From assembly GCF_003330765.1 (NCBI RefSeq), contig NZ_CP024903.1, positions 1,240,001 through 1,304,000 on the forward strand: 64,000 bases of DNA, read 5' to 3'. This document shows, piece by piece, positions 43,288 to 64,000 of this stretch. The number at the start of each line of letters is the position of its first letter. The first letter of the stretch is position 1. Source of the DNA: Burkholderia pyrrocinia. GTDB taxonomy: Bacteria > Pseudomonadota > Gammaproteobacteria > Burkholderiales > Burkholderiaceae. The notes under the pieces are model-generated. The model was not told the origin of the DNA. It searched no databases and saw nothing but the letters and a program-made list of their open reading frames with translations. Both the position numbers and the translations under genes were made by a program.

Positions 43288-44481
43288 GTGCATCGCGACA
43301 ACGATTCGAACGCACTGGCCGCCACGCTGATCGCCCGGGCCGAGGCGCTTGCGCAGACGCTCGCCGGCCGCGCCGCGCAGGCGGAAGCGCAGGGCCGCAT
43401 CCCGGCCGAGACGATCGCCGACATGCAGGCCGCCGGCTTCTTCAAGGTGCTGCAGCCGAAGCGCTACGGCGGCTACGAGCTCGATCCGCAGGCCTTCTTC
43501 GACATCCAGATGGCGCTCGCGCGCGGCTGCATGTCGACCGCGTGGGTGTACGGCGTCGTCGGCGTGCACAACTGGCAGCTCGCGCTGTTCGACGAACGTG
43601 CGCAGCAGGACGTGTGGGGCAACGACCCGGCGACCCTGATCGCGTCGACCTACATGCCGGTCGGCCGCGTGACGCCGGTCGACGGCGGCTTCCGCCTGTC
43701 GGGCCACTGGAAATTCTCGAGCGGCAGCGAACTGTGCGAATGGGTGTTCCTCGGCGCGCTGGTGCCGCCGGCCGAAGCCGGCCAGCCGCCCGAATACCGG
43801 ACCTTCCTGCTGCCGAAATCCGACTACCGGATCCAGCAGGACTGGGACGTGCTCGGCCTGCGCGCGACGGGCAGCCACGACATCGTCGTCGATGACGTGT
43901 TCGTGCCGGCGTACCGCACGCACAAGGCGATCGACGGGATGATGGGCACGAGTCCCGGCCTCGCCGTGAACGATGCGCCGCTGTTCAAGCTGCCGTTCGC
44001 GCAGATCTTCGTGCGCGCGGTGTGCACGTCGTGCATCGGCGCGCTGCAGGGCGCGCTCGACGATTTCACCGGCTATGCGACGACGCGGGTGTCCGCGAAC
44101 AGCGGCGCGAAGACGACCGACGATCCGGGCGCGCAGAACGCATGCGCGAACGCGGCCGTCGCGATCGACGAGATGAAGGTGCTGCTCAAGCGCAATTTCG
44201 CGGAACTGATGGCGTCGGTCACCGGCGGCCCGGCCGTGTCGATCGAGCGCCGCGTGCATTTCCGCTACCAGTCCGCGCAGGTCGCCGAGCGCTGCGCGCA
44301 GGCCGCGAACGCGCTGCTGCGCTACGCGGGCGGCAACGGCATCTATCACCGCAATCCGCTGGTGCGCCGTTTCCTCGACCTGCACGCGGCCCGCGCGCAC
44401 TACGCGAACAACGTGGACCGTTTCGGCCAGAACCTCGGCGCCGTGATGCTCGGCCGCGAGAACACCGACTTCTTCATCTGA
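43288..44481 (+). CDS. hsaA: Group D flavin monooxygenase, 3-HSA hydroxylase oxygenase component (HsaA-like)
   Basis: The 397-aa protein has the acyl-CoA dehydrogenase fold used by two-component flavin monooxygenases (GFFKVLQPKRYGGYELDPQ, then SGHWKFSSGSE, DWDVLGLRATGSHD). HsaA is about 394 aa and hydroxylates the aromatised steroid ring (3-HSA) to the catechol, using FMNH2 from HsaB. A matching flavin reductase is encoded two genes downstream. GTG 43288 follows CAGGAGA. It opens the main steroid block. HpaB- or acyl-CoA-type roles are less likely given the neighbours. Confidence 0.85.
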   Translation: MHRDNDSNALAATLIARAEALAQTLAGRAAQAEAQGRIPAETIADMQAAGFFKVLQPKRYGGYELDPQAFFDIQMALARGCMSTAWVYGVVGVHNWQLALFDERAQQDVWGNDPATLIASTYMPVGRVTPVDGGFRLSGHWKFSSGSELCEWVFLGALVPPAEAGQPPEYRTFLLPKSDYRIQQDWDVLGLRATGSHDIVVDDVFVPAYRTHKAIDGMMGTSPGLAVNDAPLFKLPFAQIFVRAVCTSCIGALQGALDDFTGYATTRVSANSGAKTTDDPGAQNACANAAVAIDEMKVLLKRNFAELMASVTGGPAVSIERRVHFRYQSAQVAERCAQAANALLRYAGGNGIYHRNPLVRRFLDLHAARAHYANNVDRFGQNLGAVMLGRENTDFFI

Positions 44482-44491
44482 CGAGGCCGCG

Positions 44492-46252
44492 ATGAACGAC
44501 CCGCAAGCGCAGCAATACGTGTTCGACGTGGTGGTCGTGGGTTCGGGCGCGGGCGCGCTGCTCGCCGCGTGCCGCGCGGCCGACCGCGGCCTGTCCGTCG
44601 TCGTGATCGAGAAGACGGCGCTATACGGCGGTACGTCGGCCGTGTCGGGCGGCGGCATCTGGGTGCCGTGCAACCACCATATCGCGGAGCTGGGCGCGAC
44701 CGATTCGCGCGAGGCCGCGCGCCGCTATATCGACGTGTGCGTGGCCGGTGCGTCGACGCCCGACAAGATCGACGCGTATCTCGACCGCGCACCGGAGATG
44801 CTGCGCTACCTGGAATCGAAGACGCCCGTGCGTTACCAGTCGCTGCCGAAGTACGCGGACTATTTCCAGAAAGTGCCGGGCGCGATGCCGGGCTATCGCG
44901 CGCTCGATCCGCTGCCGTTCGACGGCGGGCTGCTCGGCGACGAATTCGACCGGCTGCGGCCACCGTCGCCCGGCACGCTGATCGGCGGACGCGTCGCGGT
45001 GACGTCGAAGGAAGCGCATACGCTGTTCTCGCGCGGGCCCGGCTTCATGAAGCTCGCGATCGCGCAGTTCGGCCGCTACTGGCTCGACATCGGGATGCGC
45101 CGCCGCACGCGGCGCGACCGGCGCCTGACGCTCGGCAACGCGCTGATCGGCGGGCTGCGCCGCGCGCTGCTCGACCGCAACGTGCCCGTGTGGCTCGACA
45201 CGCCGATGCGCGACCTGCTCGAGGCGGACGGCCGCGTGACGGGCGTGCGCGCGCAGCGCTTCGGGCAGCCCGTGACGATCGCCGCACGGTGCGGCGTGAT
45301 CCTCGGCGCGGGCGGCTTCGAGCGCAACCAGCCGATGCGCGAGCGCTACCTGCCGCAGCCGACACAGGCGCAGTGGAGCGCGACGCCGCCGTCCAACACC
45401 GGCGACGCGATCGCCGAAGGCCACCGGCTCGGCGGCGCGCTCGCGCTGATGGAGCACGTGTGGGGCGCGCCGACGGTTAGTGTGGCGGGCGAGGAGAAGC
45501 AGCGCGCGCTGTTCGTCGAACGCAACCTGCCGGGCTGCGTGATCGTCAACCGTCTCGGCAAGCGTTTCGTCAACGAGGCCGCGCCGTATTCCGAATTCGT
45601 GCCGGCGATGTACCGCGACCATGCGCGCACCGGCGCGAGCGTGCCCGCGTGGATGGTGTTCGACGCGCGCTTTCGCCGCAAGTATCCGTGCGGGCCGATC
45701 ATGCCGGCGTCGATGATGCCCGATTCGCGGATTCCGGCAGCGTTTCGCGACGTGCTCGTGAAGGCCGACACGATCGACGCGCTCGCCGCGCGGATCGGCG
45801 TCGACGCGGCCGGCCTGCGCGACACGCTGCGCGACATGGCGCGCTACGCGGTCACCGGCATCGACGAAGCGTTCGGCAAGGGCGACAACGCGTTCGATAC
45901 GTACTACGGCGATCCGCAGAACACGCCGAACCCGTGCCTCGGGCCGGTCGACCAGGCGCCGTTCTACGCGGTGCGGATCGACGCGGGCGACATCGGCACG
46001 AAGGGCGGGCTCGTCACCGACGCGCTGGCCCGCGTGCTGCGCGCCGACGGCGAGCCGATCGACGGCCTCTACGCGATCGGCAACACCAGCGCATCGATGA
46101 TGGGCGCGAGCTACCCCGGCGCGGGCTCGACGCTCGGTCCGGCGATGACCTTCGGGTATATCGCCGCCGACCACCTGGCCGCGCAGGCGGCCGACGCCGG
46201 CGACCGGCCAGCCCGGCCATCCACGACTGAACTTGACGGAGTCCGACCATGA
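44492..46252 (+). CDS. 3-ketosteroid dehydrogenase-like FAD flavoprotein (KstD/TesH or TesI type)
   Basis: The 586-aa protein has a Rossmann FAD site at the N-terminus (VVVGSGAGALLAA) and the C-terminal FAD-dependent flavoprotein signature YPGAGSTLGPAMTFGYIAADH. In Rhodococcus KstD the first Tyr of that block and the Gly four residues on are catalytic, and both are present. The enzyme would introduce a double bond into ring A (delta-1, or delta-4 with a 5-alpha substrate). It begins 10 nt after hsaA. Which reaction it does is not decided by sequence alone; its length is above that of characterised KstD (about 510 aa). Confidence 0.82.
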   Translation: MNDPQAQQYVFDVVVVGSGAGALLAACRAADRGLSVVVIEKTALYGGTSAVSGGGIWVPCNHHIAELGATDSREAARRYIDVCVAGASTPDKIDAYLDRAPEMLRYLESKTPVRYQSLPKYADYFQKVPGAMPGYRALDPLPFDGGLLGDEFDRLRPPSPGTLIGGRVAVTSKEAHTLFSRGPGFMKLAIAQFGRYWLDIGMRRRTRRDRRLTLGNALIGGLRRALLDRNVPVWLDTPMRDLLEADGRVTGVRAQRFGQPVTIAARCGVILGAGGFERNQPMRERYLPQPTQAQWSATPPSNTGDAIAEGHRLGGALALMEHVWGAPTVSVAGEEKQRALFVERNLPGCVIVNRLGKRFVNEAAPYSEFVPAMYRDHARTGASVPAWMVFDARFRRKYPCGPIMPASMMPDSRIPAAFRDVLVKADTIDALAARIGVDAAGLRDTLRDMARYAVTGIDEAFGKGDNAFDTYYGDPQNTPNPCLGPVDQAPFYAVRIDAGDIGTKGGLVTDALARVLRADGEPIDGLYAIGNTSASMMGASYPGAGSTLGPAMTFGYIAADHLAAQAADAGDRPARPSTTELDGVRP

Positions 46253-46767
46253 GCGATCTCACCACCCATCCGCTGCGCACCGACATGCTGCTCGCGATGC
46301 GCCGCCTCGCGCGCTCCGTCACGGTCATCAGCAGCGCGCACGACGGCCGGCGCTACTCGATGTCCGCGACCGCGGTCGATTCGCTGTCGACCGATCCGCC
46401 TTCGCTGCTGATCTGCATCAACCGCACATCGTCGCTGTATCCGCCGCTCGATGCGGGCGCGCCGTTCTGCGTGAACGTGCTGTCGGCGCGCCACGAAGGC
46501 ATCGCTATCGACTGCAGCGGCCGCCTGAAGGGCGAAGCGCGCTTCACGACCGGCGACTGGCATACGTCGCCGCACGGCGTGCCGTATCTGCGCGACTCGC
46601 AGGCGAGCCTCGTGTGCGAGCAGGACGGCCGCTTCGAATACGGCACGCATACGGTGTTCATCGGGCGTATCCACGAGGTGCTGATGAGCGGCGATGTCGA
46701 TCCGCTCGTCTATCTCGACGGCGCCTATACGACGCCCGGCGCGCCCGTGAGCCGCGTGGCCGCGTGA
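46249..46767 (+). CDS. hsaB: Flavin reductase, HsaB-like
   Basis: The 172-aa protein has the flavin reductase-like fold (TVISSAHDGRRYSMSATAVDS, later FCVNVLSARHEGIA). It would supply reduced flavin to the HsaA-like oxygenase. It overlaps the upstream flavoprotein stop by four bases, with GGAG eleven bases before the ATG. It could serve another monooxygenase, but position supports HsaB. Confidence 0.85.
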   Translation: MSDLTTHPLRTDMLLAMRRLARSVTVISSAHDGRRYSMSATAVDSLSTDPPSLLICINRTSSLYPPLDAGAPFCVNVLSARHEGIAIDCSGRLKGEARFTTGDWHTSPHGVPYLRDSQASLVCEQDGRFEYGTHTVFIGRIHEVLMSGDVDPLVYLDGAYTTPGAPVSRVAA

Positions 46768-47034: not shown

Positions 47035-47044
47035 GGAACCGGCC

Positions 47045-48088
47045 ATGAGCGATTCGCGCTTCCACCGGCTGACCGTTGCGGAAGTGATTTTCGAAAGCGA
47101 CGACGCGTTCTCGTTCGTGTTCGACGTGCCCGCCGCGTTGCGTGACGCATTCGCGTACCGGCCCGGGCAGTTCCTGACGCTGAACGTACCGTGCGCGGAC
47201 GCGACCGTCGCGCGCTGCTATTCGCTGTCGAGCGCCCCCGGCATCGACGCCGCACCGAAGATCACCGTCAAGCGCGTGCGCGACGGCCGCGCGTCGAACT
47301 GGCTGTGCGACCGCGTGCAGGCAGGCGACGCGCTCGACGTGCTGCCGCCGGCAGGCGTGTTTACGCCGCGCACGCTCGACGGCGACCTGCTGCTGTTCGC
47401 GGGCGGCAGCGGCATCACGCCCGTGCTGTCGATCCTGAAATCGGCGCTCGTGCACGGGCGCGGAATGCTGACGCTGATCTATGCGAACCGCGACGAGCGC
47501 TCGGTGATTTTTCGCGACGAGCTGCAGCAGCTCGCGCAGCGCCATCCGGGCCGCATGCGCGTGATCCACTGGCTCGACAGCGTGCAGGGCATACCGCACC
47601 AGCGCCATCTCGAGGAGCTCGCGCGGCCGTTCAGCCAGCAGGAGACATTCATCTGCGGGCCTGCGCTGTTCATGGAGAACGCGCTGGCCGCGATGCTCGG
47701 CCTCGGGCTGCCGCGTGCGCGCGTGCATGTCGAGCGGTTCGCGTCGCTGCCCGATGCACCGGCGCAGGCCGATGCTTCGGCGTCAGCCGCGGCAACGGCG
47801 GCGCCCGGCGACGGCGCGGCGATCGAGACGGTGCTCGACGGCGACGCGTTCGCGTTCGACAGCGCGCCCGGCGAAACGCTGCTCGACGCGATGCTGCGCG
47901 CGGGCGTGCCCGCACCGAATTCCTGCCGGATGGGGCAATGCGGCGCGTGCATGTGCCGGATCGAACGCGGCGAGGTCGCGCTCGACAGCAACCATGTGCT
48001 CGACGACGACGAGATCGCGGCCGGCTGGACGCTCGCCTGTTGCGCGCGGCCCGCGAGCGATGCGCTGCGCGTGGTGTTTCCCGATTGA
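47045..48088 (+). CDS. kshB: Ferredoxin reductase-type oxidoreductase, KshB-like
   Basis: The 347-aa protein is FNR-like with the FAD motif RCYSLS and NAD(P)-binding GGSGITP. A plant-type [2Fe-2S] domain at the C-terminus has C-x4-C-x2-C (CRMGQCGAC) plus a final Cys (LACC). This is the layout of KshB, reductase of 3-ketosteroid 9-alpha-hydroxylase. The oxygenase KshA is not in this window. GAGG precedes ATG 47045. Other Rieske systems could use it. Confidence 0.83.
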   Translation: MSDSRFHRLTVAEVIFESDDAFSFVFDVPAALRDAFAYRPGQFLTLNVPCADATVARCYSLSSAPGIDAAPKITVKRVRDGRASNWLCDRVQAGDALDVLPPAGVFTPRTLDGDLLLFAGGSGITPVLSILKSALVHGRGMLTLIYANRDERSVIFRDELQQLAQRHPGRMRVIHWLDSVQGIPHQRHLEELARPFSQQETFICGPALFMENALAAMLGLGLPRARVHVERFASLPDAPAQADASASAAATAAPGDGAAIETVLDGDAFAFDSAPGETLLDAMLRAGVPAPNSCRMGQCGACMCRIERGEVALDSNHVLDDDEIAAGWTLACCARPASDALRVVFPD

Positions 48089-48137: not shown

Positions 48138-49718
48138 ATGGACAATGAAATCCTGACCACGCCCGCGCTGATCGCGCGGGCTGCTGCGCGCCACGGCGCG
48201 CATCCGGCGATCGAGTCGGAGCATGGCCGGCTGACCTACGCGGAACTCGACGCGGCGCGTCTCGACGCGGCCCGCGCGCTGCTGGCAAGCGGCATCGATG
48301 CCGGCGACCGCATCGCGGTCTGGGCGCCGAACCTGCCGCAATGGATCGTCGCGGCGCTTGCGATCCACACCGTCGGCGCGATCCTCGTGCCGGTCAATAC
48401 ACGGATGAAGGGGATGGAGGTCGGCGGCATCCTGCACGACGGCGGCGCGCGGCTGCTGTTCTGCTCCGGCACGTTCCTCGGCGAATCCTATCCGGCGATG
48501 CTCGCGCCGCACCGGCCCGCGACGCTCGAGCGCGTCGTCGTGTTCGACGGCGAACCGCCGCCCGGCGCGCGCGACGAGACCTGGAACGCGTTCCTCGCGC
48601 GCGGCGCGGCGGTGCCGCTGTCCGCGGTGCGCGAGCGCGAGGCGCGGGTGACGCCCGACACCGTGATGGACCTGATGTTCACGTCCGGCACGACGGGCCG
48701 CCCGAAGGGCGTGATGACCGCGCACGGCCAGAACCTGCGCGCCGCGCAGGCGTGGGCGACGATCGCGGGCGTGCGCCACGACGACCGCTACCTGATCGTC
48801 AATCCGTTCTTCCATACGTTCGGCTACAAGGCCGGCTGGCTTGCCGCGCTGTCGAGCGGCGCGACCGTGCTGCCGCAGCTCGTGTTCCAGCCGGCCGACG
48901 TGCTGCGGCGTGTCGCCGACGAGTGCGTGTCGGTGCTGCCCGGCCCGCCGACGCTGTACTACGCGCTGCTCGACGCGCCCGATCGCGCGACGCGCGACCT
49001 GTCGTCGCTGCGGATCGCGGTGACGGGCGCGGCGGCGATCGCGCCGAGCCTGATCGAGCGGATGCGCGCGGAGCTCGGCTTCGAGACGGTGCTGACCGGC
49101 TACGGGCTGACCGAATCGTGCGGCTTCGCGACGCTGTGCCGGCACGGCGACGATGCCGAGACCGTCGCCTATACGTCGGGCCGGCCGATGCCGGATGTCG
49201 AGCTGCGCATCGCGGGGCCGGGCGGCGAGCCGCTCGGGCCGGACGAGACCGGCGAGATCTGGGTGCGCGGCTACAACGTGATGCGCGGCTACTTCAACCA
49301 GCCGGACGCGACGCGCGATACCGTCGATGCGGAGGGCTGGTTGCATACGGGCGATCTCGGCTGCGTCGATGAAAACGGCAACCTGAAGATCACCGATCGC
49401 ATCAAGGACATGTTCATCGTCGGCGGCTTCAACTGCTATCCGGCGGAGATCGAGCGGCTGCTTGCGGCGCATCCTGCGATCGCGCAGGTCGCGCTGGTCG
49501 GCGTGCCCGATACGCGGCTGGGCGAGGTCGGGCACGCGTATGTCGTGCTGCGTCCGGGCGCGCATGCCGACGCCGATGAACTGAACGACTGGGCGCGCCG
49601 CAACATGGCGAACTACAAGGTGCCGCGGCATTTCACGTTCGTCGAGCAACTGCCGACGAGCGCGGCGGGGAAGGTGCTGAAGTACCGGCTGCGCGCGGGG
49701 ACCGAGGCGGCGGCTTGA
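48138..49718 (+). CDS. fadD3: Acyl-CoA synthetase, FadD3-like
   Basis: The 526-aa protein is an ANL-family ligase with the AMP-binding FTSGTTGRPKGVM and the end motif GWLHTGDLGCVDENGNLKITDRIKD. FadD3 activates 3a-alpha-H-4-alpha-(3'-propanoate)-7a-beta-methylhexahydro-1,5-indanedione (HIP) as its CoA ester, starting C/D ring degradation. The FadD3 assignment rests on the neighbouring Ipd, Ech and FadE genes. It starts 49 nt after kshB. Confidence 0.82.
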   Translation: MDNEILTTPALIARAAARHGAHPAIESEHGRLTYAELDAARLDAARALLASGIDAGDRIAVWAPNLPQWIVAALAIHTVGAILVPVNTRMKGMEVGGILHDGGARLLFCSGTFLGESYPAMLAPHRPATLERVVVFDGEPPPGARDETWNAFLARGAAVPLSAVREREARVTPDTVMDLMFTSGTTGRPKGVMTAHGQNLRAAQAWATIAGVRHDDRYLIVNPFFHTFGYKAGWLAALSSGATVLPQLVFQPADVLRRVADECVSVLPGPPTLYYALLDAPDRATRDLSSLRIAVTGAAAIAPSLIERMRAELGFETVLTGYGLTESCGFATLCRHGDDAETVAYTSGRPMPDVELRIAGPGGEPLGPDETGEIWVRGYNVMRGYFNQPDATRDTVDAEGWLHTGDLGCVDENGNLKITDRIKDMFIVGGFNCYPAEIERLLAAHPAIAQVALVGVPDTRLGEVGHAYVVLRPGAHADADELNDWARRNMANYKVPRHFTFVEQLPTSAAGKVLKYRLRAGTEAAA

Positions 49719-49750
49719 TTGCCGCCGCGACACACGAACAGGATGGATGC

Positions 49751-50524
49751 ATGAACGACAACGGATTTCCGCAGGGCGCGGTGCTGGTGTTCGGCGGCAG
49801 CGGCGGGATCGGGCAGGGCGTCGCGCTCGAGTTTGCGCGTGCCGGCGTGCCGGTCGCGGTGGGCTACCGCAGCAAAGCCGACGTGGCCGGGCGGGTCGCG
49901 CGCGACATTCGTGTCGAAGGCGTCGCGGCCACCACGCACTGCGTGGACGTGACCGATCCCGCGCAGGTCGACGCCGCGCTCGCGGCCGCGATCGACGCGC
50001 ATGGCCGCGTGCACACGGTCGTCTGGGCGGCCGGGCCGTTCGTGAACCAGCGCCATATCGGCGACATGACGCACGACGACTGGCGCCGTGCGATCGAGGT
50101 CGAGACGATCGGGTTCTTCGTGGCGGCGAAAGCCGCGCTGCCGCATTTCCGCGCATCGGGCGGCGGGTCGTTCGTGACGCTCGGCTCGGCCGGACACCTG
50201 CGCTGGCCCGATCGCGACGGGCTGTCGGTCGCGCCGAAGGCGGCGAACGAGGCGCTGGTCAAGGGGCTCGCGCGCGAAGAGGGGCGTTACAACATTCGCG
50301 CGAATTCGATCCTGGTCGGCGTGATCGAGGCCGGGATGTTTCCGGTGCTGCTCGAACAGGGGCAGTTCGACCAGGCGTGGATCGACGAGACGCAGAAGAT
50401 GCTCGCGCTCAAGCGCTGGGGGAAGGCGCACGACGTGGGGCGGGCGGCGGTGTTTCTGGCGTCGGACCGCGCTGACTACGTGACGGGGCAGCAGTTGAAT
50501 GTTTCCGGCGGGTACGGGTTGTAG
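49751..50524 (+). CDS. SDR-family oxidoreductase with substituted catalytic Tyr
   Basis: The 257-aa protein has the Rossmann start VLVFGGSGGIGQGVA (residues 11-25). The catalytic Ser is at about 146 and the Lys at 163. The position of the Tyr in Y-x-x-x-K is Ser159 (S-V-A-P-K), and the usual NNAG is WAAG (92-95). A classic SDR dehydrogenase may therefore be inactive or altered. It follows fadD3 by 32 nt and ends the first steroid transcript with a terminator. A dehydrogenase role in the pathway is only suggested by context. Confidence 0.8.
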   Translation: MNDNGFPQGAVLVFGGSGGIGQGVALEFARAGVPVAVGYRSKADVAGRVARDIRVEGVAATTHCVDVTDPAQVDAALAAAIDAHGRVHTVVWAAGPFVNQRHIGDMTHDDWRRAIEVETIGFFVAAKAALPHFRASGGGSFVTLGSAGHLRWPDRDGLSVAPKAANEALVKGLAREEGRYNIRANSILVGVIEAGMFPVLLEQGQFDQAWIDETQKMLALKRWGKAHDVGRAAVFLASDRADYVTGQQLNVSGGYGL

Positions 50525-50534
50525 CGGGTGTGAA

Positions 50535-50560
50535 GAAGCCCGCTTGGACGAGCGGGCTTC
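50535..50560 (+). terminator. Terminator after the SDR gene
   Basis: A perfect 10-bp stem (50535-50544 with 50551-50560) and 6-nt loop start 10 nt after the stop codon. It also lies beyond the stop of the convergent lipoprotein gene. Confidence 0.65.
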
Positions 50561-50579
50561 GGAGTCGCTTGAGGCGCTA

Positions 50580-53380: not shown

Positions 53381-53398
53381 ATCTGGATGGAGGGACCT

Positions 53399-55144: not shown

Positions 55145-56038
55145 ATGACGATGAAACCTCTCGATAAAACGATGTCCGCGCGCGACGTGGTCGCGCAACT
55201 CGCCGACGGCATGACGATCGGCGTCGGCGGATGGGGGCCGCGGCGCAAGCCGATGGCGCTGGTGCGCGAGATCGCGCGCTCGAACCTGAAGGACCTGACG
55301 GTCGTTGCGTATGGCGGCGCCGATGTCGGCCTGCTGTGCGCGGCGGGCAAGGTGCGCAAGGTGGTGTTCGGCTTCGTGTCGCTCGACGTGATTCCGCTCG
55401 AACCGCATTTCCGCCGGGCGCGCGAGCAGGGTCGCATCGACGTGCTCGAACTCGACGAAGGGATGCTGCAGCTCGGCCTGCGCGCGGCCGCCGCGCGCCT
55501 GCCGTTCCTGCCGACGCGCGCCGGGCTCGGCACCGCGCTGCTCGATCACGCGCCGGAACTGCGCACGGTGCGCTCGCCGTACGACGACGGCGAGACGCTG
55601 CTGGCGATGCCGGCGATCGAGCTCGACGTCGCGCTGCTGCACGTGAACGCGGCCGACCGGATGGGCAACACACGCATCGACGGCCCCGATCCGTTCTTCG
55701 ACGCCTGGATGGCGCGCGCCGCGCAGCGCTGCTACGTGTCGGCGGAAACGGTCGACGCGTCACTCGCGAGCGAAGACCTCGACGCCGCGCGACGCAACCC
55801 GTTCGAGCGTTCGCTCGTCACCGGCGTCGTGCACGTGCCGGGCGGTGCGCATCCGACGTCGTGCGGGCCAGCCTACGGCTGGGACCTGCCGCACCTGCGC
55901 GCGTATTGCGCAAGCGCGGAAGACGACGCGAAGACGGCGGCGTACCTGCGCGACGTGGTCGGCCAGGACGAACGCCAGTATCTAGAAAGCGTCGGCGGCC
56001 TGTCGCATGTGTCGACGCTGCCGTTGCCGATTCTGTAA
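55145..56038 (+). CDS. ipdA: IpdA-like subunit of COCHEA-CoA hydrolase
   Basis: The 297-aa CoA-transferase family alpha subunit contains MTIGVGGWGPRRKPMALVRE, similar to M. tuberculosis IpdA (MTIGIAGWGSRRKPMAFVRA). Its LELDEGML puts Glu105 where IpdA has its catalytic Glu105. IpdAB opens the last steroid ring (COCHEA-CoA) rather than transferring CoA. The gene starts 10 nt after hsaC, and ipdB follows 10 nt after it. Confidence 0.9.
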   Translation: MTMKPLDKTMSARDVVAQLADGMTIGVGGWGPRRKPMALVREIARSNLKDLTVVAYGGADVGLLCAAGKVRKVVFGFVSLDVIPLEPHFRRAREQGRIDVLELDEGMLQLGLRAAAARLPFLPTRAGLGTALLDHAPELRTVRSPYDDGETLLAMPAIELDVALLHVNAADRMGNTRIDGPDPFFDAWMARAAQRCYVSAETVDASLASEDLDAARRNPFERSLVTGVVHVPGGAHPTSCGPAYGWDLPHLRAYCASAEDDAKTAAYLRDVVGQDERQYLESVGGLSHVSTLPLPIL

Positions 56039-56048
56039 AGGAGCGCCT

Positions 56049-56846
56049 GTGAGCGAATCTCTCGACCATTCCCTCGCGGAACTGATGATCGTCGCGTCCG
56101 CGCGACTCTGGCGCGACGACGGCGAAGTGCTGGCGACCGGCATCGGCACGGGCCCGCGGCTCGCGGCCGGCCTCGCGCGGCTCGCGTACAACAACGGGCT
56201 GATGCTGACCGACGGCGAAGCGTATCTCGTCGAGGAGCCGGTGCCGCTCGGCCCGCGTCCCGACGGCTATCGCGTGAAGGCGAGCGGCTGGATGACCTAC
56301 GAACGCGTGTTCGACTGTCTGTGGCACGGCCGCCGCCACGCGCTCGTGATGCCGACGCAGATCGACCGCTTCGGTCAGGCCAACATCTCGTGGCTCGGCG
56401 ACGACTACGCGCGCCCGAAAACTCAACTGCTTGGCGCGCGCGGCTTCCCCGGCAACTCGACGAACCACGCGAACTCGTTCTTCGTCAGCGGCCACGGCAA
56501 GCGCACGTTCGTTGCCGGCGAGGTCGACATGGTGTGCACGGTCGGCTACAACCCGGCGCGCCGGCTGCCCGGGATGAAGACCTTCGTCGACCTGCGCAGC
56601 ATCGTCACCGACCTGTGCGTGATGGATTTCGGCGGGCCCGACCACGCGATCCGCGTGCGCTCGCTGCATCCCGGCGTGAGCTTCGACGAGGTGCAGGACG
56701 CGACGGGCTTCCCGCTGATCGCGCATCCGGAACTCGGCACGACGGCCGCGCCGAATGCGGAAGACTTGCGCATCGTGCGCGCGCTCGATCCGCACAACCT
56801 GCGCGCGACGATCGTGCGCAACAATCCGGCGCCGCGCCGGGGATGA
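56049..56846 (+). CDS. ipdB: IpdB-like subunit of COCHEA-CoA hydrolase
   Basis: The 265-aa beta subunit of the CoA-transferase fold pairs with IpdA. GTG 56049 follows AAAGGAG. Recognisable segments are TGIGTGPRLAAGLARL near the start and GFPGNSTNHANSFFV in the middle. It overlaps the enoyl-CoA hydratase gene by four bases. Confidence 0.9.
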   Translation: MSESLDHSLAELMIVASARLWRDDGEVLATGIGTGPRLAAGLARLAYNNGLMLTDGEAYLVEEPVPLGPRPDGYRVKASGWMTYERVFDCLWHGRRHALVMPTQIDRFGQANISWLGDDYARPKTQLLGARGFPGNSTNHANSFFVSGHGKRTFVAGEVDMVCTVGYNPARRLPGMKTFVDLRSIVTDLCVMDFGGPDHAIRVRSLHPGVSFDEVQDATGFPLIAHPELGTTAAPNAEDLRIVRALDPHNLRATIVRNNPAPRRG

Positions 56847-57775
56847 GGTCCGACATGGAAGCGACCCAGGTGACGTTCGGCGACGGTGTCGTCGACTACG
56901 CGGTCGAGGACGGCATCGCGACGATCACGATGAACCGCCCCGAGTATCACAACGCGCAGAACTCGAAGATGACCTATGCGCTCGACGCGGCGTTCCGGCG
57001 CGCGGCGCACGACGACACGGTGAAGGCGATCGTGCTCGCGGGCGCCGGCAAGCATTTCTCGGCGGGCCACGACATCGGCACGCCGGGCCGCGACATCCAC
57101 GAGTCGTTCGATCGCGCGTCGCTGTGGTACGACCACGTCGACAAGGAAGGCGGTGAATTCCTCTATGCCCGCGAGCAGGAGGTGTACCTGGGGATGTGCC
57201 GGCGCTGGCGCGACTTGCCGAAGCCGACGATCGCGATGGTGCAGGGCGCCTGCATCGCGGGCGGGCTGATGCTCGCGTGGGTGTGCGACCTGATCGTCGC
57301 GTCGGAGGATGCGTTCTTTGCCGATCCGGTCGTGCGGATGGGGATTCCGGGCGTCGAGTATTTCGCGCATGCGTACGAGCTGAACCCGCGCATCGCGAAG
57401 GAATTCCTGTTCCTCGGCGAGCGGATGCCGGCCGAGCGCGCGTACCAGATGGGGATGGTCAACCGCGTGGTGCCGCGCGAGCGGCTGCGCGACGCGACCT
57501 ACGCGATCGCCGCAAAGATCGCGACGATGCCGCGCCTCGGGCTCACACTGACCAAGCAGGCGCTGAACCACGTCGAGGAGCTGCAGGGCAAGCGCGCGGC
57601 GATGGACGCGGCGTTCGCATGGCATCACTTCGCGCATGCGCACAACGAGCTCGTCAGCGGCGACCGCCTCGGCGGTTACGACGCGCGCAGCATGGCCAGC
57701 TCGCAGCGCCAGCCGAACGGCGCGGAGCGCGGCGACGCGGCGGCGCCGGCCGCCGTCAACGGAGCCGCCGCATGA
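56843..57775 (+). CDS. Enoyl-CoA hydratase/isomerase family protein
   Basis: The 310-aa crotonase-fold protein includes GAGKHFSAGHDIG and the later ACIAGGLMLAWVCDLIVAS, the crotonase signatures. Its length exceeds the usual 260 because of a C-terminal extension. It would hydrate or isomerise an unsaturated CoA thioester during ring C/D breakdown. ATG 56843 overlaps the ipdB stop; ATG 56855 is an alternative start. Confidence 0.85.
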   Translation: MRSDMEATQVTFGDGVVDYAVEDGIATITMNRPEYHNAQNSKMTYALDAAFRRAAHDDTVKAIVLAGAGKHFSAGHDIGTPGRDIHESFDRASLWYDHVDKEGGEFLYAREQEVYLGMCRRWRDLPKPTIAMVQGACIAGGLMLAWVCDLIVASEDAFFADPVVRMGIPGVEYFAHAYELNPRIAKEFLFLGERMPAERAYQMGMVNRVVPRERLRDATYAIAAKIATMPRLGLTLTKQALNHVEELQGKRAAMDAAFAWHHFAHAHNELVSGDRLGGYDARSMASSQRQPNGAERGDAAAPAAVNGAAA

Positions 57776-58872
57776 GCACGACGCTGCAAAGCCCGCTGCA
57801 TACGCCGCTGTGCGACCTGCTCGGCTGCCGCTACCCGATCGTGCAGACCGCGATGGGCTGGGTGGCCGACGCGCGGCTCGTCGCGGCGACCGCGAACGCG
57901 GGCGGTTTCGGCTTCCTGGCCGGCGCGACGCTCGAGCCCGAGCAGGTCGAGGCCGAGATCCTGAAGGTGAAGTCGCTGACGGACAAGCCGTTCGGCATCA
58001 ACTTCCACATGTTCCAGAAGAACGCCGCGCAGGTGGTCGATCTCGCGATCGAGCACCGGCTGCGCGCGGTGAGCTACGGCCGCGGGCCCGACGCGAAGAC
58101 GATCCGCCGCTTCAAGGATGCCGGCATCGTCTGCATGCCGACCGTCGGCGCGCCGAAGCATGCGGCGAAGGCCGTCGAGCTCGGCGCGGACATCGTGACG
58201 GTGCAGGGCGCGGAAGGCGGCGGCCACACGGGCTCGGTGCCGACCACGCTGCTGCTGCCGAAGGTGCTCGACGCGGTGCGGGTGCCGGTCGTCGCGGCCG
58301 GCGGGTTCTTCGACGGGCGCGGGCTGGCTGCCGCGCTGGCCTATGGCGCGGCCGGCATCGCGATGGGCACGCGCTTCCTGATGAGCGCCGAATCGCCGGT
58401 GCCGCGGGAGACGCTCGATCGCTACGTCGCGGTCGGCGACCCGGCGCGCATCCGCGTGTCGGACGCACTCGACGGGCTGCCGCAACGGATGATCGACAAC
58501 CCATATCTGCTGAAGCTCGAACGCTTCGGCCCGCTGCGCCGCACGCTGTTCGCGCTGAAGACGGCCGAGGCATGGCGGCGCCAGAACGGGCTGCGCGCGG
58601 GCCAGATGCTCGGCCTCGCGTTCAAGGCGCTGCGCGAGCACGACTACACGGCTAGCCAGACGCTGATGGCCGCGAACGCGCCGTTCCTGATCCAGCGCGC
58701 GATCGTCGAGGGCCGTCCCGACGAAGGCGTGCTGCCGAGCGGCCAGGCGGCGGCGATGATCGGCGCGATCGAATCGTGCGACGCGCTGATCGCGCGGATC
58801 GTCGCGGAAGCCGGCGAGCGGCTCGACGCGCTGGCCGCACTGCGCGGCGCGGCAGCGGCGCAGGCCGCGTGA
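57772..58872 (+). CDS. ipdC: Nitronate monooxygenase-like flavoprotein, IpdC-like
   Basis: The 366-aa FMN-binding TIM-barrel protein contains YPIVQTAMGWVADARL, VQGAEGGGHTG and GAAGIAMGTRFL, as in 2-nitropropane dioxygenase-type proteins. In M. tuberculosis IpdC (Rv3553) this family acts as a hydroxylated-CoA reductase in the HIP pathway. Context gives the assignment. It overlaps the preceding gene by four bases. Confidence 0.86.
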   Translation: MSTTLQSPLHTPLCDLLGCRYPIVQTAMGWVADARLVAATANAGGFGFLAGATLEPEQVEAEILKVKSLTDKPFGINFHMFQKNAAQVVDLAIEHRLRAVSYGRGPDAKTIRRFKDAGIVCMPTVGAPKHAAKAVELGADIVTVQGAEGGGHTGSVPTTLLLPKVLDAVRVPVVAAGGFFDGRGLAAALAYGAAGIAMGTRFLMSAESPVPRETLDRYVAVGDPARIRVSDALDGLPQRMIDNPYLLKLERFGPLRRTLFALKTAEAWRRQNGLRAGQMLGLAFKALREHDYTASQTLMAANAPFLIQRAIVEGRPDEGVLPSGQAAAMIGAIESCDALIARIVAEAGERLDALAALRGAAAAQAA

Positions 58873-58897: not shown

Positions 58898-59701
58898 ATG
58901 ACAGCATCCAATCAACCGGCCGGCGCGATGCCGTTCCGGATCGACCGCGCCGACGGCATCGCCGAACTGGTGATCGCCCAGCCGCCCGTGAACGCGCTCG
59001 ACGCGCAGGGCTGGCATGCGCTCGCCCGCGCGCTCGACGCGCTCGGCGAGGACGACGACGTGCGCGTGATCGTCGTGCGCGGCGAGGGTCGCGGCTTCTG
59101 CGCGGGGGTCGACATCAAGGAACTGGCCGCGCATCCGGAGCGGATCGTGTCCGTCAACGCGGGCAACTACGAGACGTTCCGCGCGGTGCACCGCAACCCG
59201 AAGCCGGTGATCGCGGCCGTGCACGGTTTCGTGCTCGGCGGCGGGATCGGCATCTGCGGCGCGGCGGACATCGTCGTCGCGGCCGACTGCGCGCGCTTCG
59301 GCGTGCCCGAGATCGACCGCGGCGCGATGGGCGGCGGCGCTCACCTGCAGCGGCTGTTCGGCGTGCAGAAGGTGCGCACGATGTACTTCACGGGCGACAT
59401 GATCGACGCGGTCGAGGCGTACCGGCTCGGCGCGGTCGAGCAGGTCGTCGCGCGCGACGCGCTGCGTGACGCGGCGCTCGCGATCGCCCGCAAGATCGCG
59501 GCGAAGAGCCCGGCGATGGTGCGGCTCGCGAAGGAGGCGCTGAACGGCGTCGAGGACGGCGATCTCGAGGACAAGTACCGCTGGGAGCAGGGCTTCACGC
59601 TGCAGGCGTACATGACGAACGACTCGACGGAAGCGCGCGCCGCATTCGTCGAGAAGCGCGACGCACGCTTCGACGCACCGGACGAGGAGGCGCGCGCATG
59701 A
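58898..59701 (+). CDS. echA20: EchA20-like enoyl-CoA hydratase (steroid ring hydrolase)
   Basis: The 267-aa crotonase-fold protein contains GRGFCAGVDIKELA and FVLGGGIGICGAADIVVA, which resemble M. tuberculosis EchA20 (GRGFNAGVDIKE, FCVGGGIGLVGNSDVIVA). EchA20 hydrolyses ring D of the CoA intermediate. A GGGAGG site precedes the ATG, 25 nt after ipdC, and its stop overlaps the next gene. Confidence 0.86.
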   Translation: MTASNQPAGAMPFRIDRADGIAELVIAQPPVNALDAQGWHALARALDALGEDDDVRVIVVRGEGRGFCAGVDIKELAAHPERIVSVNAGNYETFRAVHRNPKPVIAAVHGFVLGGGIGICGAADIVVAADCARFGVPEIDRGAMGGGAHLQRLFGVQKVRTMYFTGDMIDAVEAYRLGAVEQVVARDALRDAALAIARKIAAKSPAMVRLAKEALNGVEDGDLEDKYRWEQGFTLQAYMTNDSTEARAAFVEKRDARFDAPDEEARA

Positions 59702-60867
59702 AACTGACCTATACGCCGCAGCAGCAGGCGTTCCGCGCGGAAATCCGCGAATGGCTCGCCGCGCACGTGCCGCGCGAGCGGCTGCCGAGCTTCGACACCG
59801 AGGAAGGCTTCGCCGCGCACCGCGAATGGGAGCGCACGCTGCACTCGGGCCGCTGGAGCATGGTCACGTGGCCGCGCGAACTGGGCGGGCGCGGGTGCGA
59901 CCTGATCGAGTGGCTGATCTTCGAGGAAGAGTACTGGCGTGCCGACGCGCCGATGCGCGTGAACCAGAACGGCATCTTCCTGCTCGGCCCGACGCTGATG
60001 GATTTCGGCACCGATGCGCAGAAGGCGCGCTTCCTGCCCGCGATGGCGGCCGGCGAGCACGTGTGGGCGCAAGGCTGGTCGGAGCCGAACGCGGGCTCGG
60101 ACATGGCCGCGATCCGCACGACGGCGATCCGCATCGGCGACGAGTACGTGCTGAACGGGCAGAAGATCTGGTCGACCCGCGCGGTGTGGGCCGACTGGCT
60201 GTTCGGGCTGTTCCGCAGCGATCCCGAATCGTCGCGCCACCACGGGCTCACGTTCCTGATGGTGCCGCTGTCCGCGCCGGGCATCACGGTCCGGCCGATC
60301 CGGCAACTGAACGGGCAGACCGGCTTCGCGGAAATCTTCTTCGACGACGTGCGCGTGCCGGTCGAGAACCGGCTCGCGGCCGAAGGCGCGGGCTGGCAGG
60401 TCGCGATGGCGACGGCCGGCTTCGAGCGCGGGCTGATGCTGCGCTCGCCCGCGCGGTTCCAGCGCACCGCGCAGGCGCTGCGCGACCTGTATCTCGCGCA
60501 CCGCGACAGCGCGGACCGCGACCCGACGCTGCGCGAGCGCGTGGTGTCGGCGTGGATGGATGCGCAGGCCTATGCACTGTCGACCTACGCGACCGCGAGC
60601 CGACTGCTGAAGGGCGGCCACATCGGCGCGGAGTCGAGCACCAACAAGGTGTTCTGGTCGGAGCTCGACCTGCGCATGCACCAGACGGCGCTCGACATCC
60701 TCGGCGCGCATGGCGAGGTCGTCCCGCAGACGGCTGCGCAGCACGCGACGCTCGGCCACTGGCTCGACGGCTTCCTGTTCGCACAGGCCGGCACGATCTA
60801 CGCGGGCACCAACGAGATCCAGCGCAACATCGTCGCCGAACGGATGCTCGGCATGCCGCGCGCGTAA
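59698..60867 (+). CDS. Acyl-CoA dehydrogenase (FadE-type, steroid pathway)
   Basis: The 389-aa protein has the FAD-binding AQGWSEPNAGSDMAAIRT and the C-terminal YAGTNEIQRNIVAERMLGMPRA. A different residue replaces the Glu of Y-E-G-T. It lies beside a shorter acyl-CoA dehydrogenase, so the two probably form an alpha2-beta2 heterotetramer, as known for several steroid dehydrogenases. It overlaps echA20 by four bases. Confidence 0.87.
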   Translation: MKLTYTPQQQAFRAEIREWLAAHVPRERLPSFDTEEGFAAHREWERTLHSGRWSMVTWPRELGGRGCDLIEWLIFEEEYWRADAPMRVNQNGIFLLGPTLMDFGTDAQKARFLPAMAAGEHVWAQGWSEPNAGSDMAAIRTTAIRIGDEYVLNGQKIWSTRAVWADWLFGLFRSDPESSRHHGLTFLMVPLSAPGITVRPIRQLNGQTGFAEIFFDDVRVPVENRLAAEGAGWQVAMATAGFERGLMLRSPARFQRTAQALRDLYLAHRDSADRDPTLRERVVSAWMDAQAYALSTYATASRLLKGGHIGAESSTNKVFWSELDLRMHQTALDILGAHGEVVPQTAAQHATLGHWLDGFLFAQAGTIYAGTNEIQRNIVAERMLGMPRA

Positions 60868-60902
60868 CGGCGCCGGCGACCCCCTCACTGAACGGACATC
60901 GT

Positions 60903-61970
60903 ATGGATTTCGTATTCGATGAAGACCAGGAAGCGCTCGCGGACAGCGTGAAGCGCCTGCTGATGACCGAGATGACGCCCGAGCTGATCCGCGAGCTCTG
61001 GGCCACGCCGACCGGGCGCTCGGATGCGCTGTGGGCGCTGTTCGCGTCGCAGGGGCTGACCGCCGTGTCGGTGCCCGAGGCGCACGGCGGCCTCGGCCTG
61101 ACCGAAGCGGAATGGGCGCTGCTCGCGCAGACCTACGGCTACTTCGGCAGCCCCGAGCCGCTGCTCGACACGGCGCTCGTGTCGGCCGGCGTATTGGCGC
61201 GGCTGCCCGCGAGCGACTGGCGCGACGCGCTGTTGCGCGACATCGCCGAAGGGCGCGCGCGCGTCGCGCTCATGCATCCGGTGAACCCGTATGCGGCCGA
61301 CGTGCACGTCGCGCAGACGCTCCTGTGCGAACACCACGGCGAGCTGCACCGCGTCGATCCCGCGCAGTGCGCGTGGCGCGCGGTCGACAGCGTCGACCCG
61401 TCGCGGCGCCTGTTCACGCTCGACTGGGAGCCGTCGCCGGCCACGCGCATCGCGGGCGCCGCCGAGGCCGCGCCGCTGCTGGATCGCGCGCTCGACCACG
61501 GCGCGTTCGCGGTCGCCGCGCAGTTGCTCGGCCTCACGCAGCGCGTGCTCGACGTCGCGCTCGACTACAGCGCTCAGCGCAAGCAGTTCGGCAAGGCGAT
61601 CGGCTCGTACCAGGCGCTCAAGCATCTGCTCGCGGATGTCGCGATCCGCTACGAGTTCGCGCGGCCGGTCGTCGCGCGCGCCGCGCAGGCGATCGCCGAC
61701 GATCATCCGCAGCGCGCGGTGTTCGTGTCGCACGCGAAGCTCGCGGCGACGGCCGCCGCACAGCTTGCCGCGCGCCACACGATGCAGGTGCACGGCGCGA
61801 TCGGCTACACGTGGGAGCTCGATCTGCAGATCTTCATGAAGCGCATCTGGGCGCTCTCCGGCAGTTGGGGCGACAGCGCGTTCCACAAGGCCCGCGTGGC
61901 CGACGCGATCCTCGGCGACGCATTGCCGATCGGCCCCGCGCAGACTTTCGATTTCACCGAGGAATGCTGA
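60903..61970 (+). CDS. Acyl-CoA dehydrogenase, second subunit
   Basis: The 355-aa acyl-CoA dehydrogenase-fold protein contains LGLTQRVLDVALDYSAQRKQFGKAIGSYQALK and AARHTMQVHGAIGYTWELDL. It begins 35 nt after the first acyl-CoA dehydrogenase and is its likely heteromeric partner. Its stop overlaps the thiolase start (TGATG). Which subunit holds the catalytic base cannot be settled by eye. Confidence 0.87.
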   Translation: MDFVFDEDQEALADSVKRLLMTEMTPELIRELWATPTGRSDALWALFASQGLTAVSVPEAHGGLGLTEAEWALLAQTYGYFGSPEPLLDTALVSAGVLARLPASDWRDALLRDIAEGRARVALMHPVNPYAADVHVAQTLLCEHHGELHRVDPAQCAWRAVDSVDPSRRLFTLDWEPSPATRIAGAAEAAPLLDRALDHGAFAVAAQLLGLTQRVLDVALDYSAQRKQFGKAIGSYQALKHLLADVAIRYEFARPVVARAAQAIADDHPQRAVFVSHAKLAATAAAQLAARHTMQVHGAIGYTWELDLQIFMKRIWALSGSWGDSAFHKARVADAILGDALPIGPAQTFDFTEEC

Positions 61971-63121
61971 TGAAACAAGCCTATATCGTCGACGCGCTGC
62001 GCACGCCGACCGGCCGCCGCAAGGGCGGGCTCGCGCACGTGCATGCGGCGGACCTCGGCGGCTTCGTGCTGAAGACGCTCGTCGAACGCAATGCGATCCC
62101 GGCCGACGAATACGACGACGTGGTGTTCGGCTGCGTCGACACGATCGGCCCGCTCGCGGGCAACATCGCGCGCACCTGCTGGCTCGCGGCCGGGCTGCCG
62201 CTGCAGGTGCCGGGCGTGACGGTCGACCGCCAGTGCGGCTCGTCGCAGCAGGCCGTGCACTTCGCCGCGCAGGCCGTGATGAGCGGCGTGCAGGATGTCG
62301 TCGTCGCCGGCGGCGTGCAGACGATGACGCAGATTCCGATCTCGTCCGCGATGACCTGCGCGACGCCGCTCGGCTTCACCGATCCGTTCTCGGGCAGCAC
62401 CGGCTGGCGCGCGCGCTTCGGCGATGCGCCGGTGTCGCAATTCGTCGCCGCGCAGCGGATCGCCGATCACTGGAACCTGTCGCGCGATGCGATGGAGCGT
62501 TATGCGCTCGAAAGCCACCGCCGCGCGGTCGCGGCGATCGAGGCCGGCCATTTCAAGCGGGAAATCGTGCCGCTCGAAGGCGTGATGCACGACGAGACGC
62601 CGCGCCCCGACACGTCGCTGGAAAAGATGGCGACGCTCGAACCGCTCGCGCCGGGCGGCTCGCTGACGGCCGCCGTCGCGAGCCAGACCTGCGACGCGGC
62701 AGCCGCGTTGCTGATCGTGTCGGAGGACGCGCTGAAGCGCTACGGCCTCACGCCGCGCGCGCGCATTCACCACCTGAGCGTGCTCGGCGACGATCCGCTG
62801 TGGATGCTGACCGCGCCGATTCCGGCGACGAAGGCTGCGCTCGCGAAGAGCGGGCTCGACGGGTCGCAGATCGACGTCGTCGAAATGAACGAGGCGTTCG
62901 CGTCGGTCGCGCTCGCGTGGCTTGCCGACACGCGCTTCCCGCACGAAAAGACCAATCCGAACGGCGGCGGCATCGCGCTCGGCCATCCGCTCGGCGCGAC
63001 CGGCGCGCGGCTGATGACGACGCTGCTGCACGAGCTGGAACGCACGGGCGGCCGTTACGGGCTGCAGACGATGTGCGAAGGCGGCGGCCTCGCGAACGTC
63101 ACGATCATCGAGCGCCTGTGA
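61970..63121 (+). CDS. fadA6: Thiolase, FadA6-like
   Basis: The 383-aa protein contains the thiolase nucleophile Cys89 (VDRQCGSS), His339 (ALGHPLGATG) and the second catalytic Cys369 (MCEGGG). It should carry out the CoA-dependent cleavage that ends the steroid ring breakdown. The start overlaps the preceding stop. Acetoacetyl-CoA thiolase function is an alternative, but the context favours FadA6. Confidence 0.88.
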   Translation: MKQAYIVDALRTPTGRRKGGLAHVHAADLGGFVLKTLVERNAIPADEYDDVVFGCVDTIGPLAGNIARTCWLAAGLPLQVPGVTVDRQCGSSQQAVHFAAQAVMSGVQDVVVAGGVQTMTQIPISSAMTCATPLGFTDPFSGSTGWRARFGDAPVSQFVAAQRIADHWNLSRDAMERYALESHRRAVAAIEAGHFKREIVPLEGVMHDETPRPDTSLEKMATLEPLAPGGSLTAAVASQTCDAAAALLIVSEDALKRYGLTPRARIHHLSVLGDDPLWMLTAPIPATKAALAKSGLDGSQIDVVEMNEAFASVALAWLADTRFPHEKTNPNGGGIALGHPLGATGARLMTTLLHELERTGGRYGLQTMCEGGGLANVTIIERL

Positions 63122-63155
63122 GCGCGTCATCTTTCACGATCCACGAGGCATGAGC

Positions 63156-64000
63156 ATGGGAATCTGTAACGGACGCACCGTCATCATCACTGGCGCGGGC
63201 GGCGGGCTCGGGCGCGAATACGCGCTCGCGTTCGCGGCCGAAGGCGCGGCGGTCGTCGTCAACGACATCCGGCACGAAGCGGCACAGGCCGTGTGCGACG
63301 AGATCGCCAAACGAGGTGGAAGCGGCGGCGGCCGCGCGCTCGCGAATTCGGACGACATCACGCAGAGCGACACCGCACAGCGGATCGTCGATGCGGCGCG
63401 CGAAGCGTTCGGCGACGTGCACGTGCTCGTCAACAACGCGGGCATCTGCCGCGACAAGATGTTCACCAGCATGACCGAAGCCGACTGGGACGACGTGATG
63501 CGCGTGCACCTGCGCGGCCACTTCTGCCTGTCGAGCGTGCTGGCGCGCGTGTGGCGCGATGCGGCAAAGGCCGGCCAGCCGGTGGACGCGCGGATCGTCA
63601 ACACGAGTTCGGGGGCCGGGCTGCAAGGCTCGATCGGCCAGTCGAACTACGGCGCGGCGAAGGCCGGGATTGCCGCGCTCACGCTGATGCAGTCGGCCGA
63701 GCTGCAGCGCTACGGCGTGCGCGTGAACGCGCTCGCGCCGGCCGCGCGCACGTCGATGACCGAAGGCGTGTTCGCCGACATGATGAAGAAGCCCGAGGAC
63801 GGCGGCTTCGACTATTTCGATCCGGCCAACGTCGCGCCGCTGGTCGTGTGGCTCGGCAGCGCGCTGTCGGCCGACGTGACGGGCCAGGTGTTCGAGGTCG
63901 CGGGCGGGATGATCGCGGTCGCGGAAGGCTGGCGCACGGGCCCGCGCGTCGATCGCGGCGCGCGCTGGGCGGCGGCCGAGGTCGGCCCGGCAGTCGCGCA
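63156..64000 (+). CDS. SDR-family oxidoreductase, truncated by the window end (IpdF-like)
   Basis: The frame has no stop before 64000 (at least 281 codons). It has the Rossmann TGAGGGLGREYALAF, NNAG, a catalytic Ser in NTSSGAGLQG and Tyr-Lys in SNYGAAKAG, so the catalytic site is complete. In M. tuberculosis, IpdF (Rv3559c) is an SDR of the same pathway, which fits. ATG 63156 has GAGG seven bases upstream; ATG 63150 is possible. The 3-prime end is outside the window. Confidence 0.83.
   Translation, partial: MGICNGRTVIITGAGGGLGREYALAFAAEGAAVVVNDIRHEAAQAVCDEIAKRGGSGGGRALANSDDITQSDTAQRIVDAAREAFGDVHVLVNNAGICRDKMFTSMTEADWDDVMRVHLRGHFCLSSVLARVWRDAAKAGQPVDARIVNTSSGAGLQGSIGQSNYGAAKAGIAALTLMQSAELQRYGVRVNALAPAARTSMTEGVFADMMKKPEDGGFDYFDPANVAPLVVWLGSALSADVTGQVFEVAGGMIAVAEGWRTGPRVDRGARWAAAEVGPAVA

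Follow-up and report, generated by a model that had tools for sequence, protein, structure and literature searches.

A steroid ring-degradation cluster, very likely fronted by a luciferase-like monooxygenase (LLM) orthologous to that of the pdc progesterone cluster of Caenibius tardaugens (PMC12239570), was identified in a Burkholderia pyrrocinia genome of 8.0 Mb in 3 contigs. The window, that is, the whole stretch of 64,000 nucleotides analyzed, corresponds to C2:1240001-1304000. Gene families and gene positions leave hardly any doubt that the core steroid pathway is encoded here, and the LLM probably acts on a C21 steroid ketone. In a first-pass annotation, 43288..64000 had already been described as a steroid-catabolism cluster of a Burkholderia-like genome that covers both the A/B rings and the HIP stage, and this claim is confirmed; the LLM gene lies upstream of 43288 and had been missed. 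Throughout, family and place were taken from the sequence, and the order of reactions from work on Comamonas testosteroni TA441 and Mycobacterium tuberculosis.

The ring-degradation gene set

All enzyme classes that had been claimed were recovered through family models, PDB matches, and gene position (Table 1), and the named cluster genes lie in the same orientation, closely spaced or overlapping. KstD and KshA are both present, as expected of the aerobic 9,10-seco steroid pathway, and so is the HIP-stage set of FadD3, IpdAB, IpdC, EchA20, and FadA6 that is expected of its tes/scd type. The ring-cleaving dioxygenase HsaC matched M. tuberculosis HsaC (2zi8) with 253 bits, compared to 183 bits for the next structure, BphC (1han). 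In a tree of 30 rows (excluding the long RHA1 pRHL1 row, placed on the HsaC side by another tree), it grouped with the HsaC proteins of M. tuberculosis and Tsukamurella, and the 7 BphC/NahC rows stood apart on a branch with 99/96 support, a split found in 100% of 200 bootstrap trees; HsaC is thus placed within the steroid clade. Its residues H146, H214, and E265, which we take to be the iron ligands, are intact, as is Glu105 of IpdA, which occupies the same column as the residue altered (Asp-Ala) in 6coj; both observations had been made in the first-pass annotation. Furthermore, IpdA and IpdB both score solved IpdAB far above other CoA-transferases and therefore do not fall outside the steroid group, although IpdB is without a Pfam or NCBIfam match. 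The flavin reductase was named HsaB by position, because the HsaB model gave 71 bits (cut-off 230) and RutF 101 bits, and the KshB-type reductase likewise, because no KshB was among the best 60 PDB matches listed for it; IpdC was assigned by class (NMO) and place.

Table 1. Features of the window and of the 40 kb that follow it (L007 and L008 are pieces of the latter).
Feature	Position	Strand	Basis
LuxR-type regulator, candidate for the cluster (putative role)	37147..38373	-	408 aa; Pfam GerE 25.8 bits
VOC/glyoxalase-fold protein, between regulator and LLM	41371..41721	-	116 residues; Pfam Glyoxalase 24.6 bits
LLM, predicted type II Baeyer-Villiger enzyme for progesterone	41982..43121	+	379 aa; open reading frame (ORF) opens at 41838; Pfam Bac_luciferase
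HsaA-type oxygenase	43288..44481	+	NCBIfam HsaA 393.5 bits (cut-off 450); best PDB chain 2rfq ("3-HSA hydroxylase, oxygenase") 276 bits
3-ketosteroid delta-1-dehydrogenase KstD	44492..46252	+	Best PDB 7p18 ("3-oxosteroid 1-dehydrogenase") 651 bits; NCBIfam 587 of 788
Flavin reductase, HsaB by position	46249..46767	+	Pfam Flavin_Reduct
KshB-type ferredoxin reductase, PaaE family	47045..48088	+	PaaE type 247 bits (cut-off 421); name by position
FadD3-type HIP-CoA ligase	48138..49718	+	825 bits (cut-off 657), scored from 48156
Short-chain dehydrogenase/reductase (SDR)	49715..50524	+	Family scan
Porin-like ORF	52145-53140		In SDR-HsaC hotspot
VapC/PIN gene	53568-54038		In SDR-HsaC hotspot
HsaC/TesB extradiol dioxygenase	54238..55134	+	NCBIfam 311.6 bits (cut-off 450); best PDB 2zi8
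IpdA, scdL1 place	55145..56038	+	PDB 6co6 254 bits vs. 95 for glutaconate CoA-transferase
IpdB, scdL2 place	56007..56846 (start 56007 or 56049, uncertain)	+	PDB 6con chain B 179 bits vs. 43
EchA20-type crotonase, scdN place	56843..57775	+	PRK08290 469.8 bits (cut-off 280), scored from 56840
IpdC-type flavoprotein, scdK place	57772..58872	+	Pfam NMO; FabK model 235 of 453 bits
Second crotonase, scdY place	58898..59701	+	PRK07938 388 bits (cut-off 260)
Acyl-CoA dehydrogenase, scdM1/M2 place	59698..60867	+	Family scans
Acyl-CoA dehydrogenase, IpdE2-like, scdM1/M2 place	60903..61970	+	IpdE2 138 of 450 bits, scored from 60885
FadA6-type thiolase, scdF place	61964..63121	+	PRK07801 700 bits (cut-off 591), scored from 61979
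SDR, scdE place	63150..64000, and 46 bases beyond the window	+	PRK07791 449 bits (cut-off 373), scored to 63998
KshA	L007:8714-9793		PDB 4qdc 393 bits; Pfam KshA_C 243 bits
4-hydroxy-2-oxovalerate aldolase, acetaldehyde dehydrogenase, and 2-oxopent-4-enoate hydratase	L008:3554-6297		NCBIfam
HsaD/BphD-type hydrolase	L008:10459-11295		Right class and place

KshA and HsaD to HsaG are outside the window, as had been stated. The search of the adjoining sequence that the first-pass annotation proposed, carried out on the next 40 kb of the same genome, located KshA 8.7 kb on, HsaF, HsaG, and HsaE at 24-26 kb, and an HsaD/BphD-type hydrolase at 30.5 kb; all missing steps are therefore present within 31 kb. 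The cluster continues on contig C2 as far as about 1337.9 kb, and the window includes the larger part of this complete gene set. HsaE, HsaF, and HsaG matched TIGR03220 (450 bits, cut-off 408.8), TIGR03217 (554, 286), and TIGR03215 (481, 282), families that serve other meta pathways too. The same 40 kb encode two acyl-CoA dehydrogenases, an SDR, a MaoC hydratase, and a thiolase, as well as YCF48-type and MMPL-type proteins, DUF1329 and DUF1302 proteins, further SDRs, and an electron-transfer flavoprotein pair.

The luciferase-like monooxygenase

The LLM shares 64.6% identity with the LLM on plasmid pNL2 of Novosphingobium aromaticivorans, the one match on that plasmid, where its neighbours are a LuxR-type gene and a steroid isomerase. 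Each LLM is the best match of the other (558 bits, compared to 111 bits for the next), and the pNL2 protein entered the comparison as a stand-in for the C. tardaugens LLM. According to the available part of PMC12239570, the N. aromaticivorans protein (labelled there both Saro_3594 and Saro_3595) is 88% identical to C. tardaugens EGO55_13860, for which knock-outs, complementation, and an assay established the conversion of progesterone to testosterone acetate, redundantly with a type I Baeyer-Villiger monooxygenase (BVMO). In our LLM tree, 22 rows (at least 62% identity) lay on one side of a 100/99 branch and 5 outgroups on the other, a separation that is to be expected since the outgroups are just 29-35% identical.

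Outside the main Burkholderia set, where the search covered 30 of 71 HsaC-bearing loci, LLM was found in 21 of 30 genomes: in all Paraburkholderia-like (7/7), Cupriavidus-like (5/5), Pseudomonas (8/8), and Sphingomonadales (1/1) genomes, and in 0/9 others. Among 20 loci of Burkholderiaceae and Pseudomonas, which were fetched around LLM matches (19 of 20 regions, the remaining one coming from a sphingomonad, plus L102), LLM adjoins HsaA without exception, and HsaB is part of the same stretch in 18. The VOC-fold protein stands beside LLM in 13/13 Burkholderiaceae loci and 0/7 Pseudomonas loci.

A literature search, which took in the candidate papers in part, retrieved no report of LLM in Burkholderiaceae or Pseudomonas. 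PMC12239570, in its available part, places LLM in Sphingomonadales, notes its absence from C. testosteroni, and is without mention of Burkholderia, Cupriavidus, or Paraburkholderia. It also describes no flavin reductase near LLM in two strains and leaves the reductase unassigned.

Relation to known steroid clusters

Starting from IpdA, the enzyme classes are two CoA-transferases, a crotonase, IpdC, a second crotonase, two acyl-CoA dehydrogenases, a thiolase, and an SDR in the scdE place, followed by two further acyl-CoA dehydrogenases, an SDR, a MaoC protein, and a thiolase. From IpdA to the last thiolase, these 14 genes have the same classes in the same order as the list scdL1L2, N, K, Y, M1M2, F, E, C1C2, G, D, J in a legend on the tes/scd mega-cluster of TA441 (PMC13101464, available part), which we read as map order. 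In the same source, ScdF is a thiolase, ScdE, ScdG, ScdC1C2, and ScdK are dehydrogenases, and ScdD is a hydratase. Because the order of enzyme classes matches this list, we equate the scd-like block found here with the TA441 scd set. In contrast to TA441, LLM adjoins HsaA here (TA441 is without LLM, as far as PMC12239570 reports), KshA is located downstream of the scd set, and HsaA, KstD, HsaB, KshB, and FadD3 lie on the HsaC side.

The first-pass annotation had described the locus as the actinobacterial KstR2 regulon plus parts of the tes/scd clusters. Its gene classes hold: FadD3, IpdA, IpdB, IpdC, EchA20-type and FadA6-type enzymes, and acyl-CoA dehydrogenases are shared with the KstR2/HIP regulon of M. 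tuberculosis (PMC5380842, available part). However, the locus follows the tes/scd pattern in gene order and in companion genes, so that a tes/scd-type cluster is the better frame.

The LLM orthologue is shared with the pdc cluster, and a LuxR-type gene stands beside LLM in 10/20 loci outside the sphingomonads, although in this genome the one nearby, 3.6 kb upstream, is a paralogue. However, LLM here is located within a ring-degradation cluster, beside HsaA and a flavin reductase, and the LuxR types are just about 31% alike. Since no close type I BVMO, the enzyme that goes with a TetR regulator in the pdc cluster, was found (the best match to the pNL2 BVMO in this genome has 35% identity), we do not call this a pdc cluster.

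The suggestion that the organization might be undescribed was not borne out, as the gene set is known in Burkholderia and the order from IpdA is that of the TA441 scd list; the core cluster is a member of a kind already recognized in the genus. The available parts of PMC4810484, PMC5790920, and PMC5062160 give earlier predictions of steroid clusters in Burkholderia, Ralstonia, and Cupriavidus and name B. cepacia GG4 and B. cenocepacia J2315; PMC4810484 and PMC5062160 count Burkholderia among the bacteria with a steroid gene set, and PMC5062160 lists TesB of B. cenocepacia J2315. LLM is absent from these parts. The available parts of PMC11446756 and PMC12195390 contain no data on growth of Burkholderia on steroids.

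Conservation within and beyond the genus

We profiled 65 Burkholderia species genomes for HsaC, KshA, the HsaD-type gene, LLM, and LuxR, leaving partial matches uncounted (LLM in G027, a genome without KshA; HsaC in G027 and G059; LuxR in G027 and G037) together with a LuxR copy of only 46% in G057. The 36 genomes with a full-length LLM are also those with KshA and the HsaD-type gene, and 35 of them have a full-length HsaC as well; the remaining one (G025) is a draft of 480 contigs. Whereas PMC4810484, in its available part, regards the steroid trait as a minority one in proteobacterial genera, 35-36 of these 65 genomes carry the cluster.

HsaC and KshA are 18.4-18.9 kb apart in 35/35 genomes, whereas the distance from HsaC to LLM ranges from 9.0 to 67 kb and that from KshA to HsaD from 8.2 to 24.8 kb (33 of the 36 genomes have the latter two on one contig). 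The scd block is thus rigid, with the two flanking joints absorbing insertions. In the synteny table, from which part of L039 to L042 was left out, the order from IpdA to the SDR is kept in 22/22 loci (L009-L030), all from Burkholderia, and the cluster is therefore more than a chance assembly.

In two genomes, those of B. paludis (L078) and B. stagnalis (L061), corresponding to G027 and G059, only a truncated HsaC was found. L078 also retains part of LLM and a scrap of a thiolase; as just these remnants are left, the cluster has been lost there. The wider survey of named HsaC-bearing genomes yielded 71 loci, from Burkholderia, Paraburkholderia, Cupriavidus, Pandoraea, Pseudomonas, Solimonas, and others. 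The HsaC of the window shares 98% identity with its B. metallica counterpart and 95-98% with those of further named Burkholderia species, e.g., B. cenocepacia, B. lata, and B. cepacia.

Candidate regulators

Also upstream of 43288 and unlisted in the first-pass annotation, a LuxR-type gene is located 3.6 kb upstream of LLM; chances are even that the cluster is under LuxR-type control. Copies of it (88-100% identity) were detected in 20/65 genus genomes, 3.9-11.3 kb from LLM in all 20; the LuxR search scored at most 28 candidates per genome, which makes its absences weaker. The gene is a paralogue of the LuxR that stands beside LLM in other genera. The counterpart of the latter in this genome is found at C2:1519169, and such counterparts (56-60% identity to the LuxR of the window) are present in the same 36/65 genomes as KshA. 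We therefore rejected the window LuxR as the pdc or LLM-side regulator, as the tree groups the C2:1519169 copy with the LLM-side ones and separates the window copy from them, through a fork supported by 85/78 only. The neighbours of the C2:1519169 gene and of a third copy on C1 include no steroid gene of our panel. No TetR-type gene was present among the cluster genes scanned, KstR and KstR2 not having been searched genome-wide, and according to the available part of PMC6895838, no bacterium other than C. testosteroni is known to have tesR-like genes.

Weighing the readings

Several observations weigh against a steroid cluster fronted by a progesterone-converting LLM. HsaA, HsaB, HsaC, HsaD, and KstD all score under the curated NCBIfam cut-offs, HsaB and KshB bear names given by position, and the hydrolase matched BphD in the PDB better than HsaD (179 vs. 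149 bits), with a near tie in NCBIfam (197 vs. 194.5 bits). LLM lies away from HsaA in 4 Sphingomonadales loci, is lacking in 9/30 HsaC-bearing genomes, and has an in-frame stop in one Pseudomonas genome (G085); its closest NCBIfam model, matched under the cut-off, is an F420 subfamily. Besides the missing close type I BVMO partner, no match to the pNL2 steroid isomerase (KSI) was obtained in the genome, in a search without a positive control, and no esterase for the testosterone acetate step was identified.

Of the other readings, the strongest, albeit still unlikely, is that LLM is a steroid enzyme acting on another ketone of the pathway (e.g., at C17 of ring D or on a seco intermediate) rather than on the progesterone side chain. 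This would account for the link of LLM with the core pathway instead of with side-chain genes, and it would suit both the strict co-occurrence with KshA (36/65 genomes) and the adjacency to HsaA (20/20 loci); moreover, C. testosteroni grows on progesterone without LLM (PMC12239570, available part), which counts against the main reading as well. However, according to the available part of PMC13101464, TA441 needs no LLM for a complete core pathway, the 9 HsaC-bearing genomes lacking LLM point the same way, and the assayed relative yields testosterone acetate (PMC12239570, available part). We therefore continue to favour a C21 steroid ketone as the substrate.

A clearly smaller probability attaches to decay or silence of the cluster in this strain: loss does occur in the genus, as the two genomes with only a truncated HsaC illustrate, a stretch of lower third-position GC interrupts the cluster here, and the LLM-side LuxR has moved, but the cluster frames used contain no internal stops. 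Finally, a biphenyl- or other aromatic-type cluster, or a general beta-oxidation cluster, that merely resembles steroid catabolism is highly improbable and was rejected, as the BphD-like hydrolase and the HsaA, HsaC, and HsaD scores under their cut-offs are outweighed by the co-inherited combination of KstD, a KshA with its KshA_C domain, the tree position of HsaC, IpdA, and IpdB.

Insertions and neighbouring sequence

The interval from the SDR to HsaC (50524-54238) is an insertion hotspot, with a lowered GC content of about 58-63% at 50-54 kb. Its porin-like ORF was tried as HsaC and rejected, since it matches the CarO model with 40 bits, far under the cut-off. VapC is present in 19/22 of the loci L009-L030 and in no Paraburkholderia row among the matches listed.

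Between KshA and the HsaEFGD genes, the stretch of lower third-position GC runs from L007:15224 to L008:3429 and encodes ATP-pyrophosphatase-like, alpha/beta hydrolase, HlyD-type, ABC-transporter-like, and outer-membrane efflux proteins; it looks like a small acquired biosynthesis-export set. Away from the cluster, two tandem KshA-like oxygenases (G000:C2:2928841-2930934) share 45% and 38% identity with the cluster KshA.

Upstream of the cluster, the GC content is low across 26000-31500 (50% at 28-30 kb); this island, possibly of a defence or mobile kind, includes a UvrD-like helicase ORF (28316-30454). It is followed by a DUF1800 and DUF1501 gene pair at 31436-33990 and, a few kb upstream of the cluster, by a tyrosine recombinase/integrase gene (34480-35736, minus strand).

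Proposed pathway and implications

In the pathway that we propose, KstD and KshAB would open ring B and aromatize ring A, HsaA and its flavin reductase would hydroxylate the product, HsaC would cleave it, and the HsaD-type hydrolase would split ring A/B. From the small fragment, HsaE, HsaF, and HsaG would produce pyruvate together with acetyl- or propionyl-CoA, and FadD3 together with the scd-like set, including IpdC, the EchA20-type enzyme, and IpdAB, would dismantle HIP by beta-oxidation. LLM would insert oxygen beside C20 of progesterone, and the resulting testosterone acetate would enter the core pathway through a putative esterase and a 17-hydroxysteroid dehydrogenase. HsaB could supply FMNH2 to both HsaA and LLM; that it is the flavin reductase of LLM is conceivable, at somewhat less than an even chance. 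More tentatively still, we suggest that in Burkholderiaceae and Pseudomonas LLM regularly belongs to the ring-degradation cluster, as a two-component Baeyer-Villiger enzyme that shares HsaB with HsaA.

The core cluster itself adds little that is new beyond locating the missing steps and showing that about half of the Burkholderia genomes searched, rather than a few, carry the trait. If the suggestion on LLM is correct, a single source of FMNH2 would serve both the entry of C21 steroids and the hydroxylation of ring A, and the reductase left unassigned in PMC12239570, the only paper found on LLM, would be named. Progesterone, a common hormone pollutant, would in that case be usable by more than half of the Burkholderia species examined, and strains of Burkholderia, Paraburkholderia, Cupriavidus, and Pseudomonas with the LLM-HsaA pair are predicted to use it via a flavin-dependent Baeyer-Villiger step.

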